Shown: one piece after another, positions 3,799 through 64,000 of the stretch
Layout: every line of letters starts with the position of its first letter
Numbering within the stretch: position 1 is the stretch's first letter
NCBI RefSeq assembly: GCF_900120175.1
Contig: NZ_FQLF01000001.1
Coordinates: 682,001 to 746,000 of the forward strand
DNA from: Oceanicoccus sp. KOV_DT_Chl
GTDB lineage: Bacteria; Pseudomonadota; Gammaproteobacteria; Pseudomonadales; Dasaniaceae
Direction: 5' to 3'
DNA length: 64,000 nucleotides
Notes under the pieces: model-generated
The model's input: the letters and a program-made list of their open reading frames with translations, nothing else
Databases searched by the model: none
What the model was told of the DNA's origin: nothing
Made by a program: the position numbers and the translations under genes

Positions 3799-4572
3799 AT
3801 GCCCCACCGGTTTTCATCAATCCAGGTTAAATTGTTCAGCGTTAAATGGGGGGCGTTAGAAGTACGATTTCCATTGCGTGCAACACTACTGTTATTTGCA
3901 GTCGTCAGTCTGTTGTTAGCACTGGGGGTTTGGCAGCTTGAGCGAGCAGAATACAAACACTTCTTAAATACTCAAATCACGCAACTTGCTGAGCAGGCTC
4001 CTCAAGAGCTTCGCGACTTATCACTCCTTGAAACACATCTATCACCGCAGCTAGTCTCAGTTGCAGGCTACTATTTGAATCAGTTTTCTCTACTTATTGA
4101 TAATCAGCGCTATCAGGGCCGATTAGGTTTTGAGGTGATCACGCCATTCCTGATGGTTAACGAGCAGCTGTTATTGGTCAGTCGGGGATGGATGGCAAGG
4201 ACAGAATCAGCAGTTTTCATTGAGCCCATTGAAGGTTTGCAACATTTGCAGGGTGTGATTCAGCCATTGCCATTGAAGACGTTTCTACTACCACCTCGTG
4301 CCGAGGAGATTCAATGGCCGTTAATATTGCATCATTTTGATTTTCAAACAGTTAAAAATATATATGACAAACAGTTAAATTCAGCAGTTTATCCTAATGT
4401 GCTAAGGTTGAGTGCTACTAGCGCAGGCGTGTTGCAGCGACATTGGCCGCAAAAACTTCATAATGCAGATGCAAGTAGTCGCTATGCCCTTCAGTGGTTT
4501 GCTATGGCATTTTTGGCTATTATTTTTTATATCCTATTTAATAGCAATCTTATTTCACTGGTTACTAAATAA
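3799..4572 (+). CDS. SURF1 family protein (cytochrome c oxidase assembly)
   Basis: SURF1 proteins are inner-membrane factors for assembly of haem-copper oxidases, probably in haem a insertion. The product has the family layout: one N-terminal membrane helix (about residues 25-45, ending in GVWQLERAEYK, the family's G-x-WQ-x-x-R signature), a periplasmic domain with VSRGWM, and a second helix near the C-terminus preceded by YALQWFAMAF, matching the conserved YAxQWF motif. The start is probably ATG 3799; a TTG nine bases earlier is possible. The usual coxBAC/ctaG neighbours are absent, so this is an orphan copy. The downstream membrane protein begins 20 bases after the stop and is probably co-transcribed. 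Confidence 0.85.
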   Translation: MPHRFSSIQVKLFSVKWGALEVRFPLRATLLLFAVVSLLLALGVWQLERAEYKHFLNTQITQLAEQAPQELRDLSLLETHLSPQLVSVAGYYLNQFSLLIDNQRYQGRLGFEVITPFLMVNEQLLLVSRGWMARTESAVFIEPIEGLQHLQGVIQPLPLKTFLLPPRAEEIQWPLILHHFDFQTVKNIYDKQLNSAVYPNVLRLSATSAGVLQRHWPQKLHNADASSRYALQWFAMAFLAIIFYILFNSNLISLVTK

Positions 4573-4592
4573 CTCAAAAGTAGACTTATCAA

Positions 4593-5246
4593 ATGAACGA
4601 GAAAAATGAGAAGCTCGATTTAAATGTAGATGATAACGCCGTTTCACAAGATGCTGCCACTAGACAAAGAACTTTATGGCTACAGATGAGTTATCACAGC
4701 CTGGCCTTTATTAGTGCCTTGGCGCTGTGGGCTGCAGCGGATAGTTGGGCGCTGGTATCAAATTTATTGCTTGCCGATATATTGCTGGTGTTAGCTTCAA
4801 TTGTGTTTGGCATTGTCATGGGTCAAACTTTCCATGAGTGGGGACATTTTATTGCCACCCTCAAATCCGGTGCAATTTATTCAGTAAAACCTTCCCCGAG
4901 AATTTTATTTTTCGATTTTGATTATATCAATAATACTAAAGAACAATTTCTGCAGATGAGTAAGGGCGGTTCCGCCGGCAATTATGTTTTTATTGCCTTG
5001 GTGCTGTTATTGATCCCGATGGATAGCGGCGGCCGGATTATGTTGCTTGCGACTGCTATCGCGCTGGCAGTATTTGTGGCTAAGGTGGAGTTTCCGGTCA
5101 TTAAGCGTGTAAGCTCTGGAGAGGAGACGCTGGAAGTTTTGGCAGACCATTTCGCAGGTGGTTTGGAGTCAGTCTTCAGGCCTGCAATTAATACCGCTGT
5201 GATTGCTGGATTAGGTCTTTGGTTGTTTCTCTGTGTGTTTTTCTAA
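4593..5246 (+). CDS. Polytopic membrane protein with HEWGH zinc-protease-like motif
   Basis: This 217-residue protein has a short polar N-terminus and about five hydrophobic segments (roughly residues 30-50, 58-78, 125-142, 150-170 and 198-217). The motif H81-E-W-G-H85 lies just after the second segment and fits the HExxH zinc site of metallopeptidases; in site-2 (M50) proteases the motif likewise lies in or beside a membrane helix. I see no clear second M50 motif (NxxPxxxxDG or LDG), so peptidase activity is not established. A conserved-looking ADHFAGG near residue 187 could supply another ligand. It follows the SURF1 gene closely and may act on the same pathway, which is inference. Confidence 0.6.
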   Translation: MNEKNEKLDLNVDDNAVSQDAATRQRTLWLQMSYHSLAFISALALWAAADSWALVSNLLLADILLVLASIVFGIVMGQTFHEWGHFIATLKSGAIYSVKPSPRILFFDFDYINNTKEQFLQMSKGGSAGNYVFIALVLLLIPMDSGGRIMLLATAIALAVFVAKVEFPVIKRVSSGEETLEVLADHFAGGLESVFRPAINTAVIAGLGLWLFLCVFF

Positions 5247-56616: not shown

Positions 56617-59456
56617 TTAGCGACTCAATTGTTTATTAATCAAATCCAGCAAGTCATTGAGCCCTATCGGTTTGGTCAGATACTCATCCATCCCTGCTTG
56701 CAGTGCTCGATCTTTATAATCACTGCGGGCATGCGCACTGAGCGCGGCAATCACTACCGGCTTGGCGCCGGATTGCTGTTCCTTGGCGCGAATCTGATGA
56801 CTGGCTTCATAGCCATCCATCTCCGGCATTTCGCAATCCATCAGGATGAGGTCATAGCGTGTTTGCTCAAAGGCTGCTAATGCTTGCAGGCCATTGGCGG
56901 CGAGGTCAGGAGTGATGTTGAGCTGTTTTAGCAGTCCCAGGATAACCAGCTGATTTACTTGGTTGTCCTCAACCACTAACACTCGCAGGTGTTGTTGATC
57001 ATTGCTTAATGTCGCTTGTTGTTCCGCGCTATGCTGAGGGCTGGTCAGTGAACGTACTAAGGCATCATGAAGTAAGGCATGGGTAATCGGTTTCTCCAGC
57101 AAAATTTTGATATCGTAATCCGCTAAAATATTTTTGCGGGCCAATGTTCGATTAGCTGCCATTATAATAAAGACGGTAGCAGGAGAGTGCAGCTGTAAAT
57201 ATTCGCTGATTTTTAAGCTGTTGCTGTCTAATAAATGATATTCGGCGAGGACAATGTCAAAGTTGTATTGATCAATGCAGCGTCTAGCTTGATCCACGCT
57301 ACAGCAAGCAATGACCACGAGATTCCAGCTTTCTAATAAACGACTGATGATGTCGGCTGAGACTGGGTTGGGGTCTACCAGTAGCAGCCGCTTGCCATTG
57401 ATTGCTGCTGATTTTTTACGCAGCAGTGTTTTATCAATGTCTTTATCGAGCAATAAGCGGGCAGTAAACCAAAAGGTGGAACCGACGCCGGCTTCGCTAA
57501 TCACGCCAATGCTGCCGTCCATCAGTTCAGCTAATTGCTTGCTGATTGATAAGCCGAGTCCGCTGCCGCCATAACGGCCATAGGTGCTGTCGTCAGCATG
57601 TTGAAAGGGGCTAAACAGTCGTTGCTGTTCTTCATTGGTGAGACCAATGCCACTGTCTCTAACAGCAAATTTTAGTTCAATACCATTTATGGATGACTTC
57701 TGGGTGGTGCTGACACTCAACAAAATATCGCCCTGGTCGGTAAATTTAAACGCGTTACTTAAAAAATTCAGAATGATTTGTCGCAACTTGGTTGCATCGC
57801 CGCGAAGTACCGGTGGTATATCCGGGTCCAGATCGGCAATGAGATTCAGGTTTTTTTCCAACGCTCGTAGCGAAAAGGTAGAGATACAATCGTCTAACAA
57901 TGTTTCGAGATTAAAGCTGGCGATTTCCAGCGACATTTCACCGGCCTCGAATTTAGCAAAATCCTGTAAGTCGTTAATGATGGCCAGCAGGGACTGGCTT
58001 GAACGCTCAATAGTGTTTAAGTAGAGTGTTTGTTGTTCGTCCAGATGGGTCGATTTCATGAGTTCAGTCATGCCTAGCACGCCATTCATTGGGGTGCGAA
58101 TTTCATGACTCATAGTGGCGAGGAAATTGCTTTTTGAGCGGCTTTCTCGTCGCGCTTGATTTGCCGATTGTTCAAGATTTATGCGTTCAGCTCGGTTTTT
58201 AACTAGCTCGGCTTTGGCCTTTAGTTTTTCTTCATTGGCTTTGGCCATACCGAGGTTGGCGTCATTGTTTTCTTTTTGCAGTTGGTTAATACGGTCAGCC
58301 AGTGCTAGCGAGAAAAAAACCAGCATCAACGTAGTACCAATAGCGGGTAGACTTTCTGATATCCACTAATGGATAAAATCCCCAAAGTGGTCATATTGCT
58401 GGCGATCAAGGTAAAGACCTGAATCATCATCGCAATAATAAAGTGGCCTGCTGAAATTACTCCAGCGCGGCGTACGATAATGCCGGCTGCTAACGCTGCG
58501 GCAAATAATAAGCTCATGCTTGCCAGCCCAATAAATATCAATGGCAGGTAACCGGTAGTGAGGACGCCAAATGCTATCAATGACGATAGGATCGCCAGGC
58601 TGCGAATCCCAAGTAGTAGTCGTGGTGCATATTTTTTTAAATTCAGAAAATGAATAGAGAATTGAGCGAACATATTGAAATTGACGATGTACATAAACGC
58701 GTAGATCGCCAATTTCTCCCAGTTTGAGTCGGTGACGAGGTATTGATAGGCATGCCCCTGATCGGCAGCGATCAAGTAGGTTGCGCTGCTAACGTAAAGT
58801 ACATAATAAAAGTAACTTCGCTGTCGGCAGGCGAAGAACAGAAATAGATTGTATAGCGTCATCACAATCAGGCAGCCATAGAGCAGCCCGTAAAATAGTT
58901 GTCGGTGTTGGTCTCGATCGATAAATAGCTGTGGCTGCCAAATCGTCGCTTTAAATTGAAATAAGGGTTCACTGTCGATACGCCATATCAATGTGATGCT
59001 GCTATGCGGAGTGAGGCTAATCGGGTTGATTAAAGTTCGGTGCGGAATGGGGCGATTAGTAAAAGCATCATCCAGGCCAGCGTTGGCGTAGAGGGTTTCA
59101 ATCTCATTATCCTTAATAAGGTATAGGTCAGCCACCTTGATTGACGGGTATTCCGTCTGCAGAACCAAATCAATAGTTTGCTCACTATCGTTGCGCAATT
59201 GACCCTTAAACCAATAGAGCCCCGGCGCCATGATCAATGCGCCAGCGCGCTGGGTACCTGCTTGCCAGTTCAGTGATTCGCTATCACTACCTACCAGTTG
59301 GCTGAGATCCAGCGTCTGTTGCTGATCATGCAAGTAGCTCAGCTGCTCATCCAGAACTAATTTGCCCAGCTCCGGGTTAATAACAATATCCTTCGCAGCA
59401 CATTCCAGGGCAAGTAGTAACCCAAGTAGGGTGCATAGATAGTTAAGAGTTCGCAT
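56617..59456 (-). CDS. 7TM-DISM hybrid histidine kinase; one frameshift
   Basis: After repair this is one protein of about 947 residues. Order: signal peptide, a periplasmic 7TMR-DISM extracellular domain ([19 protein letters not shown]), seven membrane helices (about 185-390), a coiled coil, HisKA with the phospho-histidine in [15 protein letters not shown], HATPase ([14 protein letters not shown] and [13 protein letters not shown]), a receiver-like domain without the acceptor aspartate (IVLAEYHLL), and a receiver with [14 protein letters not shown] and LTKPIGL. The break lies at TTT 58353-58355; one more base gives [26 protein letters not shown], the usual end of the 7TM region. The ligand is unknown. 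The start at ATG 59456 gives a normal signal peptide. Confidence 0.87.
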
Positions 59457-59703
59457 AGAATTAGCTGCTAAAACCATAGTTATGATGACCGCCGCTTCGC
59501 GGCACTGTAACATCAAATATAGGCAGTAACTATTTAACTCGCAGTAACACCTGGTCTGCCTTTATTCATTTAGCGTTTACATCAATAAGGTTATCATGGG
59601 TGAAAGGCGCAAGGTTTAGCGCTTATATCAACCACAGACTCAGTATACAGATAGCTATCGGAGTCTTTCGCCATTTCACCGCAGACAGCATAGGGCAATA
59701 AAC

Positions 59704-60399: not shown

Positions 60400-62057
60400 T
60401 CAAGGTGTTGCGTCTATTACAGCGTCTATTACAGGACAGGCATAGATTTGTTCACTGCCACAGGTTACTGGTTGCTTATTGCCTTGAGGTTCAAAGCTGA
60501 GGACATGTATTTGCTGTGCTTCGAATACCGGCAAGTAAATTTCAGCATAGGCTGAAGAATCATCACTGCTATACCCTATGGTGGGTGAACCAACCGTGGA
60601 GATGGTGATACCTGCCGGGTCGCTGAGAAAACGTTGGCTAGTTCTTTCACCATAATGATCATTGATATCAAATACCACATCTGAATAGTATTCCCAGTTA
60701 TTGGGATCGTCAGGTTTCTTCGCACGCAATACCCAGGCCTTTCCCGCTTCGTCGCCGCCAACCAAAATGCTGGGTTTGGTGCTGCCTTGCATCGATTTCA
60801 TGGCATGAAACTGATGTGCTGGTCCAGGTGCTAATCGCCCTGGTGCTGACAAAGGGTAGGTTGATGGCTGTGGGCGAATATTGTCTTTAATAATATGCAC
60901 CGGCCATGGTTGATAGATATTGCCATCCCCGGGAAGCTCTAATACATATACCCGCCCTGGAATATTGCTCTGGGTTTTTGCTGTGCAGTTATCGGGTTGA
61001 TGATTACTGGCGAGTATATCCACACGGCCATCGTTGTTGACATCGCCCACTTCGATGTCGAAAGGTTGTCCTTGATTGTCACTAATCACCGCCATCCTGG
61101 GTAATGTTCCCGTAAGGGCGTTTACCTTTGACCAGGTACTGCCATCCGGTGCGCCAAACACACTGATTTTTTCTGCGAAGAAATTGGTGGTAATGAGCTC
61201 CGGGCTACCATCATTGTCGAGATCAGCCATATCGATATGAACATCGGGCCCCTTAAATTGAGCAGCGGGACCACCGTATAAAATGGTTTCTTGCCAAGGT
61301 GTTGCAGGATTTAAATCTGGGCCCGGGTTTTTAAACCAGACTAATTCGCCAAAGGGAGGATGGAAACCTTTACCGACACGAAAACCCGAACGCGCAGTGA
61401 TAATGTCTTTGTAGCCGTCGTTGTCTACATCGTAATAACGTACTTCGTGATACCAACGGGGACTATTGTTGGGATCCATGGGGCGGGTAAATTTTCCGGT
61501 TTGTTGGCTTTGATGAATGACATATTCAGTTTTAGAGGGGGCATCAAGATTGATTACTGACAGTCGTCCCGCCTCCCGCGCATTTAAAAAACCTTGTGGC
61601 AGTATTGCCGCAGTAAATGGAAAAATACCTTCTTCAACCAAGCTGGCACCATTGGGCCAAATGGTTTTGCCAAATGCCTTGCTGGCTCGCCCCAGCTGGA
61701 GGTCAGTGATGATTTCAATATCTTTGGCGGGATCAAAGTTTGCAAAGTCTATGCTGTGGATGTCAGCAATGATCCCGACTTTATCACGGTCTCTGTAAAT
61801 GCCCGTAAACAGTTTGCTAACAGGATCTTTTTCAACATTGTAGTAACTTGGAATAAACAGCGCGTCCTCACCTCGATAGCGCTCGATAGAAATTTGGGTC
61901 GGATTAAAATCCAGTGACAGAATTCCTTTGGGGTAGGGGCTATGCAGTGCTGGGGAGTATTATGGCTTATCATCGTGTGCTGGCAACCTGCCATCAGCAG
62001 TAGTGATATTAAAAGAACAGTTAGGCACTGTTGCTGGTACTTGTTTTTCAGGTACAT
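60400..62057 (-). CDS. FG-GAP/VCBS-repeat lipoprotein; one frameshift
   Basis: The N-terminus is a lipoprotein signal with lipobox LLMAGC (cysteine about residue 24). The rest contains repeated Asp-rich calcium-type loops of FG-GAP/VCBS beta-propellers: YYDVDNDGYKDIITARSG, MADLDNDGSPELITTNFF and VGDVNNDGRVDILASN. At the GGGG run 61952-61955 one more base is needed; this gives NTPPALHSPYPKGILSLDF and joins the two pieces into about 552 residues. Probably it is anchored in the outer membrane or periplasm and binds a ligand or surface. The last codons encode VIDAVIDA from a tandem 12-base repeat. It is divergent from the UbiD-like gene. Confidence 0.82.
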
Positions 62058-62476: not shown

Positions 62477-64000
62477 ATGCGTGATGAATTAAGTAAACAG
62501 CTTGAAGAGCTGGTGTCCAGGCGACGTTTTTTGGCTGCAAGCGGTGTTGCCGCAGCCTCAATGAGCTTGGCAGCAATGCCAAACTCAGCCCATGCAATGT
62601 CTGGTAAACCCCGGACTACAGGTTCGAATAATCAAGCGCCCTTTGAGAGCTTGCGCGACTATTTAGCCGCGATGGAGGATCACGGTTTATTGGTGCGCTT
62701 TGATAAAATAGATCAGGATGCTTACGAAGGTACAGCCATTATGTATTACCTGGCGGATACATTTGGTGCTTATGGTGCGCCGGTAGTGTTATTCGAAAAT
62801 GTTAAACAGGATGGACGTTGGATTAAAGGGCCAATCATAGCCAACAATCAAAGTCACTATCATCAGGAAGCGCTGATGTGGGGTTTAGAGATAGACCCTA
62901 TTGTGCCAGAGAACTCTTATCGCGCCGGCTTGAAATATATGATGTCCATGCTTGAGGCCAATGGTGGCGATTACCCGCAGATACCGCCAGTACAGGTTGC
63001 TCGGGAACAGGCTCCCTGTAAAGAAATTACGCTTACAGGCGATGAAATAGATATTACTAATTTTGCTTTTATACAGGGCAACCCCGGTGATGCTGGCCGC
63101 TATATAAATACTGCTTCGTGTTTCACCTATGACCCAGAATGGCAGCAAAATTTTGGAACCTATCGCTGCCAAATCATCAGTGCTCGAAAAATTATTTTAA
63201 ATTCTGAACCCAATCAAACGGCAAACAGAATGATTCTTCGTGCGATTAAACGCGGCGAAACAATGATGCCGGTGGCCTTCGTGTTGGGTCAGGATCCTGT
63301 AACCTGGATGGTGAGTGGCTCTCGTGTTCCTTTGACGTTTAAAAAGCCCATTGATGAGCTGGCTTATGTCGGTGGTATGCGGGGTAAAGCACTAGAGGTT
63401 GTTAAATGTGACGATAGCAGTTTGATCGTGCCAGCTCATTCAGAATTAGTGATAGAAGGGGTTATCGATTTAATCAATACCGAGCCTGAAGGTCCGTATC
63501 ATGAAACCTATGGCTATCTGGGCGACCGTAATGAGGCACGTTTTGCCGTCAGGATTAATAAAATTACCCATCGAAAAAATCCTATATTGATGAATAGCTT
63601 TACTAGCATTGGCGGAGGTTTTGTTAAGGCGCCGATGGATGCATACAACGTCAGTTCCTGGCAAAAAAAGTACCCGCAAATAACCGGCATCTTTTATCAC
63701 GACGATACCAAAGGCGTGTATTTCGTCAGTATCAAAAAAGACAAACCGGGGTTGGGTAAGGAAATAGCGAATGCCATTAGCAAGCGCTCTTTTATTGCCA
63801 AGGTGGTGGTAGTGGTCGATGATGATCTGGATATTATGAATCAGGCCGAGATGTGGTTGGCACTAGGGTCCCGCTGGCAGCCTGCGGCAGCGAGTGATAT
63901 TACTGAGTCAGCGAAAGCCTCCTTTTTTGAGCCTAGCGCTGTTGACGGAAGAACCAGTAAAATTGCCATAGATGCTACGATCCAGTGGCCAGAAGAGGGA
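62477..64000 (+). CDS. UbiD-family decarboxylase with Tat-like signal (3' end outside window)
   Basis: UbiD enzymes reversibly decarboxylate aromatic or unsaturated acids with prenylated FMN. The frame from ATG 62477 stays open for 508 codons to the window end. Family features: YRCQI with the conserved arginine, EPEGPYHETYGYLGD containing the two glutamates spaced as in EGPxxE, VVVDDDLDIMNQAEMWLALGSRWQP, and KIAIDATIQWPEEG, which lies near the normal C-terminus, so only a few residues are missing. The N-terminus is unusual: SRRRFLAASGVAAASMSLAAMP looks like a twin-arginine signal. No ubiX was seen. The substrate is unknown. GTG 62471 is an alternative start. Confidence 0.85.
   Translation, partial: MRDELSKQLEELVSRRRFLAASGVAAASMSLAAMPNSAHAMSGKPRTTGSNNQAPFESLRDYLAAMEDHGLLVRFDKIDQDAYEGTAIMYYLADTFGAYGAPVVLFENVKQDGRWIKGPIIANNQSHYHQEALMWGLEIDPIVPENSYRAGLKYMMSMLEANGGDYPQIPPVQVAREQAPCKEITLTGDEIDITNFAFIQGNPGDAGRYINTASCFTYDPEWQQNFGTYRCQIISARKIILNSEPNQTANRMILRAIKRGETMMPVAFVLGQDPVTWMVSGSRVPLTFKKPIDELAYVGGMRGKALEVVKCDDSSLIVPAHSELVIEGVIDLINTEPEGPYHETYGYLGDRNEARFAVRINKITHRKNPILMNSFTSIGGGFVKAPMDAYNVSSWQKKYPQITGIFYHDDTKGVYFVSIKKDKPGLGKEIANAISKRSFIAKVVVVVDDDLDIMNQAEMWLALGSRWQPAAASDITESAKASFFEPSAVDGRTSKIAIDATIQWPEEG

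Follow-up and report, generated by a model that had tools for sequence, protein, structure and literature searches.

The gene that begins at position 62477 of the window (the whole 64,000-nucleotide stretch of DNA analysed here) most probably encodes a prFMN-dependent decarboxylase of the UbiD family that works in the periplasm, and that would be loaded with its cofactor in the cytoplasm and then exported by the Tat pathway. We put the probability of this reading at roughly three in four. The computed features behind it are the signal, its conservation across a clade, lipoboxes, the UbiD fold, the catalytic network and the occurrence of TatC and UbiX genes. These sequences are best read as encoding a UbiD that Tat exports in folded, cofactor-loaded form, a reading that rests on the clade rather than on a single protein. 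What is new is the location: an ordinary enzyme family in an unexpected compartment, maintained by a whole clade. To our knowledge, characterised UbiDs are cytoplasmic, and prFMN chemistry is treated as cytoplasmic. None of the papers listed in searches of the open-access literature, PMC5818171, PMC7976604, PMC10865409 and PMC13040415 among them, deals with an exported UbiD to judge from title, opening of the abstract or term counts, nor is one described in the accessible parts of PMC8269228 and PMC12064950 (HmfF). A clade of UbiDs with Tat signals in mostly uncultured gammaproteobacteria implies prFMN decarboxylation in the bacterial periplasm. If the clade has been kept under Tat export, prFMN chemistry is placed in that compartment, prFMN loading, and probably quality control, would be required ahead of translocation, and these bacteria would possess a natural, partly membrane-anchored set of decarboxylases.

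Table 1. Coordinates of features in the window (positions without prefix) and at related loci (positions with locus prefix)
Feature	Position	Strand	Basis or remarks
UbiD-type decarboxylase with Tat signal	62477..64000	+	508 of 545 aa in window; stop codon ends 114 bases past window edge
Predicted Tat signal peptide, residues 1-40	62477..62596	+	Sequence; NCBIfam TIGR01409 (TAT signal) 23.0 bits, cut-off 16.7; pLDDT <50 at residues 19-49
Twin arginine codons, R15-R16	62519..62524	+	Invariant in alignments A1 and A3 (A3 rows picked by motif)
R230, Arg of Glu-Arg-Glu network (Fdc1 R173)	63164..63166	+	Alignment; motif RXnEX4(E/D), PMC5818171 (accessible part)
E338 ... E343, two acids of network (Fdc1 E277, E282)	63488..63505	+	Alignment counts
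FG-GAP repeat lipoprotein, divergent	60400..62057	-	Lipobox LLMAGC; start 62057, main ORF 60400-61641, frame break between
SDRs beside UbiD with Sec-like signal before the Rossmann fold	L042:5824-6576; L008:1-420 (cut by locus end); L044:5135-6019; L007:10928-11569; L151:4192-5070; L101 ~4082-4813		Signal by eye
Different SDR with Tat lipoprotein signal near Tat-UbiD	L051:10763-11836; L053:13312-14367		By eye; SRRRFIAGSGAVVAASSLSGC in L051
SnoaL/LEH-like Tat lipoproteins beside Tat-UbiDs	L008:7791-8315; L043:10286-10819		Satisfy Tat rule
Amidohydrolase_2 protein, internal Tat-like signal	L043:12123-13637		Satisfies Tat rule
ThDP-dependent enzyme (acetolactate synthase/benzoylformate decarboxylase type)	L042:10913-12850		Matches shown all below cut-offs
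Flavin reductase-domain gene	L042:7409-8245		2 bases upstream of Tat-UbiD; C-terminal PCP_red-like stretch below cut-off

To judge from domain matches and a predicted structure, the window protein is an intact UbiD-fold decarboxylase. It matches Pfam PF01977 (UbiD) with 171 bits and PF20696 (UbiD_C) with 49 bits, both above cut-offs; NCBIfam TIGR00148 scores 207.8, below its cut-off of 244.85. Identity to solved UbiDs is 18-28%, the best solved relative by sequence being E. coli UbiD (E 3e-36). AlphaFold2, run on the 39-row alignment A2 with 508 of the 545 aa of the window protein as its first row, gave a model with a pLDDT of 87.4 and a pTM of 0.84. In a structure comparison (VIA-align), residues ~54-508 matched best to HmfF (6h6x, Z 41.8), E. 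coli UbiD (5m1d, Z 41.0) and VdcC (7ae7, Z 40.8), and matches to other proteins (an FMN oxidoreductase, Z 11) were set aside. A pseudogene is ruled out by the complete 545-aa frame and the invariant residues. Assignment to the ubiquinone pathway was also rejected, as PRK10922 scored 138.5 bits against an equivalog cut-off of 788 and a separate canonical UbiD, split into two frames, is present in the genome (C2:1961k). We caution against naming Tat-UbiD genes as ubiquinone enzymes.

E. coli UbiD (2idb, 5m1d) and ShVdcC (7ae4, 7ae5), both of which we take to be cytoplasmic, share with the window protein the UbiD fold over residues 54-508 (Z 40-41, 27-28% identity) and the catalytic Arg and acids, but have no N-terminal signal in the alignments shown. 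HmfF, an FDCA decarboxylase (6h6x, 6h6v), has the highest structural score (rmsd 2.0 over 402 residues), yet is only 26% identical; it is aligned from chain residue 2-3, so that a signal would not fit ahead of the match. Fdc1 (ferulic acid decarboxylase, 4za4) is 25% identical, and its His191, presumably a divalent-metal ligand, is aligned with column 247, in a loop where the alignment is uncertain. This column holds Gln in 39 of 41 Tat rows, including the window protein, and His in the other 2, so that cofactor binding may differ. The positions of the Glu-Arg-Glu network are alike in the two proteins, the UbiD/Fdc catalytic motif being RXnEX4(E/D) according to the accessible part of PMC5818171.

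The catalytic residues had been described as apparently intact in the earlier note, and the alignments agree: R230, E338 and E343 are present, and they are invariant in the 41 Tat rows as well as in 18 rows labelled noTat. Canonical rows carry R in 41/41 and E in 40/41 at the first two positions, and D in 38, E in 2 and N in 1 at the third, where the window protein has Glu. All 100 aligned rows share N225 and E294.

A Tat-exported protein with these features might still not be a prFMN decarboxylase. The UbiD fold could have been re-used in the periplasm with plain FMN, with no flavin, or for ligand binding, and the low identity to solved UbiDs and the Gln aligned with the metal-ligand His would fit such a change. 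The same holds for two observations on UbiX. The own-genome copy is interrupted by a frame break in the assembly, and UbiX was found in just 2 of 50 Tat-type loci. In L165 (whose UbiD is Tat-type by eye and lies outside the tree described below) and L055, a UbiX gene is ~3.4-4.1 kb from a Tat-type UbiD. This proximity is not specific, as it was also seen in 1 of 17 distant UbiD loci. We consider a protein without prFMN unlikely, however, in view of the invariance of the Glu-Arg-Glu network and of N225/E294 (41/41), the presence of UbiX above cut-off in 10 of the 11 host genomes with Tat-UbiDs (in the own genome via one piece; not in G062), and the flavin-reductase-like gene immediately upstream of the L042 UbiD. 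TatC was likewise found in 10 of these 11 genomes (absent in G063), with two TatC genes in the own genome, and all 11 have 4-9 UbiD matches, if the canonical copy of the own genome is counted as two pieces. As a separate observation, UbiD has expanded in G057-G064 and G429, with 5 to 9 matches each and at most one UbiX above cut-off.

Accessory proteins for prFMN loading or maturation are described in the accessible parts of PMC10865409 (LpdD) and PMC13040415 (PhdC/YclD). From its sequence, the flavin reductase-domain gene of L042 is a possible prFMN maturation helper; its likeness to PhdC/YclD would be one of fold class only, as far as the accessible part of PMC13040415 goes. The idea of a maturase in every operon was discarded, as the search of the other loci gave no flavin-reductase-like gene of the L042 type.

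The N-terminus of the window protein reads MRDELSKQLEELVSRRRFLAASGVAAASMSLAAMPNSAHAM from ATG 62477, and the full-length protein on the contig has 545 aa, of which the final 37 lie outside the window. In residues 1-40 (LVSRRRFLAASGVAAA...SAHA, then M), a polar n-region is followed by S-R-R-R-F-L-A and an alanine-rich h-region that lacks charge, with A-H-A directly ahead of Met41, and signal peptidase I is likely to cut between A40 and M41, judging from this layout. We made a simple Tat rule for this analysis (RRx[FLMIVW], followed by at least 11 residues free of D, E, K, R, H, N and Q). When residues 2-54 were shuffled 20,000 times, 49 of the products also satisfied it, as did the first 60 residues of 15 out of 664 neighbouring ORFs of at least 150 aa. 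Some of these 15 may be genuine Tat proteins, and a single match is thus moderately strong evidence. Conservation at the level of the clade is stronger evidence than the match in the window by itself.

Two more UbiDs of Tat type, 44 and 46% identical to the window protein, are encoded in its own genome, and G005, a genome of the same genus, has three, one with a frame break. The enzymes thus form a multi-copy family, with two paralogues of the window UbiD in the same genome. In an alignment of six rows (A1), S14, R15, R16 and F18 are invariant, and the remaining leader is divergent. A contig scan for relatives gave 139 candidate stretches, of which 97 were relatives and 80 loci were kept. The test at each locus was applied to the N-terminus of the ORF at the match, with the added conditions of a start codon no more than 50 residues upstream and closeness to the catalytic part. 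A quick IQ-TREE tree was built from 73 rows, among them 14 of the 41 canonical UbiD rows, using the catalytic part only and excluding the signal region; rows were left out if their N-terminus was not covered or their match was short, and the output warns of long branches, L008 included.

The Tat label is confined in this tree to one clade of 43 rows (SH-aLRT 99), 41 of which satisfy the Tat rule. It is satisfied by none of the 41 canonical UbiDs and by none of the 16 relatives outside the clade, one of which (L093) reaches the contig end. The latter (rows among L084-L106) are nearest to the Tat clade, with 34-42% identity and the same catalytic residues, and differ from it by failing the rule in 16/16 cases. 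The earlier note had set homologues without the twin arginines and hydrophobic stretch against its proposal of export. Such homologues do exist, but they are the relatives outside the clade, whereas within it the signal is the rule. A chance motif at the N-terminus of the window protein was rejected on this conservation across the clade, and what had been proposed in that note, a UbiD enzyme with a twin-arginine signal starting at 62477, is upheld by the two Pfam matches, by TIGR01409 above its cut-off and by the clade-wide signal. The simplest account of the export signal is a single origin at the root of this clade, followed by retention.

Exceptions were few. In L007, a clade row from the own genome, SRRGFISKS is found in the frame adjoining that of its ATG, which points to a frame break between them; in the clade row L065, a Tat signal is absent in every frame. 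Among loci outside the tree, L043, L083, L090 and L108 satisfy the rule, and L079 and L099 have RRxF and a hydrophobic stretch by eye, yet fail the scripted version. Tat-type UbiDs are rare: at E 1e-75, two genomes have one among 390 from the order, and two among 369 from the class, the own genome being one of the two each time. The named Tat-type matches are metagenome-assembled genomes, nearly all labelled gammaproteobacteria.

The anatomy of the signal was examined in 45 full clade ORFs (alignment A3), a set made up of ORFs selected by passing the Tat rule together with L151. The residue before the twin arginines is Ser in 62% and Asp in 29%, the second residue before them Leu in 51% and Val in 20%, and position +3 Phe in 40% and Leu in 38%; positions +3 to +18 are nearly charge-free. 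TIGR01409 (E up to 0.1) detected 8 of 45 clade ORFs versus 0 of 20 control UbiDs (A4; 8 non-Tat relatives and 12 others). Four A4 rows (L110, L111, L113, L121) begin at the match, no more than 24 residues past the frame start, and their extreme N-termini are covered by the Tat-rule scan only. The model is insensitive, though the contrast between clade and controls agrees with the Tat rule.

A lipobox-like motif follows the signal in 17 of 45 A3 ORFs (6 strict, 11 looser), and the N-terminus test at each locus also marks 17 with a lipobox. Many clade members are thus probably Tat lipoproteins. By sequence, these would include the own-genome paralogue L008 and L042, L043 and L044 of G005. A lipobox is absent from the window protein and from the three proteins closest to it, L047, L048 and L049 (60-65% identical), and all four resemble substrates of signal peptidase I.

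The N-terminal stretch could also be unused for export, with the enzyme remaining cytoplasmic and the RR-hydrophobic segment serving as a neutral or membrane-tethering extension. This would be in keeping with the cytoplasmic location of the characterised UbiDs that we know of and with the clade row L065, which is without the motif. It is very unlikely, though, given that the rule is satisfied by 41/43 rows, that the RR pair is conserved in an otherwise divergent segment, that lipoboxes occur in 17/45 ORFs, and that the segment (residues 19-49) is disordered in the AlphaFold2 model.

Tat exports folded, cofactor-loaded proteins, so that cytoplasmic loading followed by export is the simplest route. 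Tat-exported cofactor enzymes are known, such as the molybdoenzymes and GFOR with bound NADP. Tat-UbiDs would resemble these in cytoplasmic cofactor loading before folded export, and would differ in that the cofactor is prFMN, for which the literature searched gave no Tat substrate. No signal-like stretch was seen ahead of the UbiX domain in the four UbiX copies examined (L165, L166, L167 and the own genome), and prFMN is therefore presumably loaded in the cytoplasm prior to Tat export. An exported UbiX was discarded, as no second UbiX-type gene is present in the own genome. Least probable of all is export as an apo-enzyme that would receive its flavin outside the cytoplasm in some unknown way. 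The attachment of FMN by ApbE in the periplasm is a precedent, but nothing direct speaks for such loading. Against it stand the own genome's two PF02441 flavoprotein-family loci, one of them UbiX (C2:863k), the four UbiX copies without a signal, and the export signal itself, which is of the Tat and not the Sec type, as an enzyme exported in folded form with its cofactor would require.

Under the preferred reading of Tat export after loading, cytoplasmic UbiX would make prFMNH2, and apo-UbiD would fold and take up the cofactor in the same compartment, as the presence of UbiX and the signal-free copies suggest. The Tat translocase would then export the folded holoenzyme. Signal peptidase I would free the window protein, and several paralogues would be lipidated and anchored. 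The periplasmic UbiD probably carboxylates or decarboxylates an acid, aromatic or alpha,beta-unsaturated, ahead of its uptake or in place of it, both substrate and direction being our inference.

Neighbourhoods vary from locus to locus. Gene neighbours were compared in three sets: 50 loci of Tat type (748 kb), 16 of non-Tat relatives (205 kb) and 17 of more distant UbiDs (257 kb). VanA-type Rieske oxygenases were found at 6, 1 and 0 of these loci, an SDR family at 7, 2 and 0, an MFS transporter at 5, 0 and 0, and a SnoaL/LEH-like protein at 3, 0 and 0; as some genomes are near-identical (L051/L053, L064/L067) and the queries were picked after looking, these counts are descriptive and do not amount to enrichment over non-Tat relatives. 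In high-GC loci, some neighbour clusters resemble shadows cast by the UbiD gene on its reverse strand, and these were ignored. The window locus itself had no match to the Rieske, SDR, MFS and SnoaL/LEH queries.

Several of the neighbouring enzymes carry signals of their own (Table 1). The SDRs of L054 and L082 lack a Sec-like signal by eye, and the SnoaL-like protein of L047 lacks a Tat signal. The ThDP-dependent enzyme of L042 lies ~1 kb after the Tat-UbiD and begins with LSRRGFGKALMALGFS, which is Tat-like and absent from the Tat-rule listing. NCBIfam gave no name to the L043 amidohydrolase or to a small Tat protein of L151. It is odd for enzymes of NAD(P) type, like the SDRs, to be exported.

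The locus L151 (genome G429) combines a TonB receptor, two Rieske oxygenases, a signal-bearing SDR, an FAD oxidase and a Tat-UbiD. The UbiX of the own genome is near a Rieske oxygenase (42% identical to L151's), and also near TonB-receptor-like pieces and a lipoprotein-type NmrA protein (both named by eye). Together, the Rieske oxygenases, signal-bearing SDRs, MFS transporters and SnoaL/LEH-like proteins suggest catabolism of acids, and the likeliest role is the breakdown of aromatic or related acids. More tentatively, several prFMN-carrying UbiD paralogues per genome with Tat or Tat-lipoprotein signals, SDRs with Tat or Sec signals, and Tat-tagged SnoaL/LEH-like, ThDP-dependent and amidohydrolase-like enzymes could form a TonB-fed periplasmic catabolic module, in which acids are decarboxylated before uptake; we regard a module of this kind as a speculative possibility.

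The lipoprotein with FG-GAP repeats that had been noticed divergent from the UbiD gene is real; its start is of the Sec lipoprotein type. A PDB sequence search with the protein gave no match up to E 1. Its homologues occur in 7 of 13 genomes tested, the own genome included; they are present in the three with the nearest UbiDs, and absent from G005. The further proposal that it belongs to the same system is weakly supported. L047 shares the arrangement (38% identical, 4.2 kb apart), but no other of the 122 loci searched has the homologue near UbiD. In the genomes of L048 and L049 it is on a different contig from the UbiD of that locus, and no UbiD was seen beside seven other FG-GAP copies (flanks of ~0.8 to 7 kb). 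An obligatory partnership is not supported, the two genes lying near each other only in the window and L047; the lipoprotein may belong to the system in this small branch only. In G064, FG-GAP homologues share two contigs (C41 and C87) with UbiD genes, 23-29 kb apart.

Frame breaks recur in the own genome. The ubiX gene (G000:C2:863180-863718, L046) and the canonical ubiD gene (G000:C2:1961154-1962574, L009) are both broken in frame, and together with the breaks in the FG-GAP gene and the L007 UbiD this points to assembly indels or real decay. In the window (56617-59516, minus strand), a 7TMR-DISM sensor ORF abuts an ORF resembling a hybrid histidine kinase (kinase by eye) in a different frame, and the two are probably one gene with a frame break.
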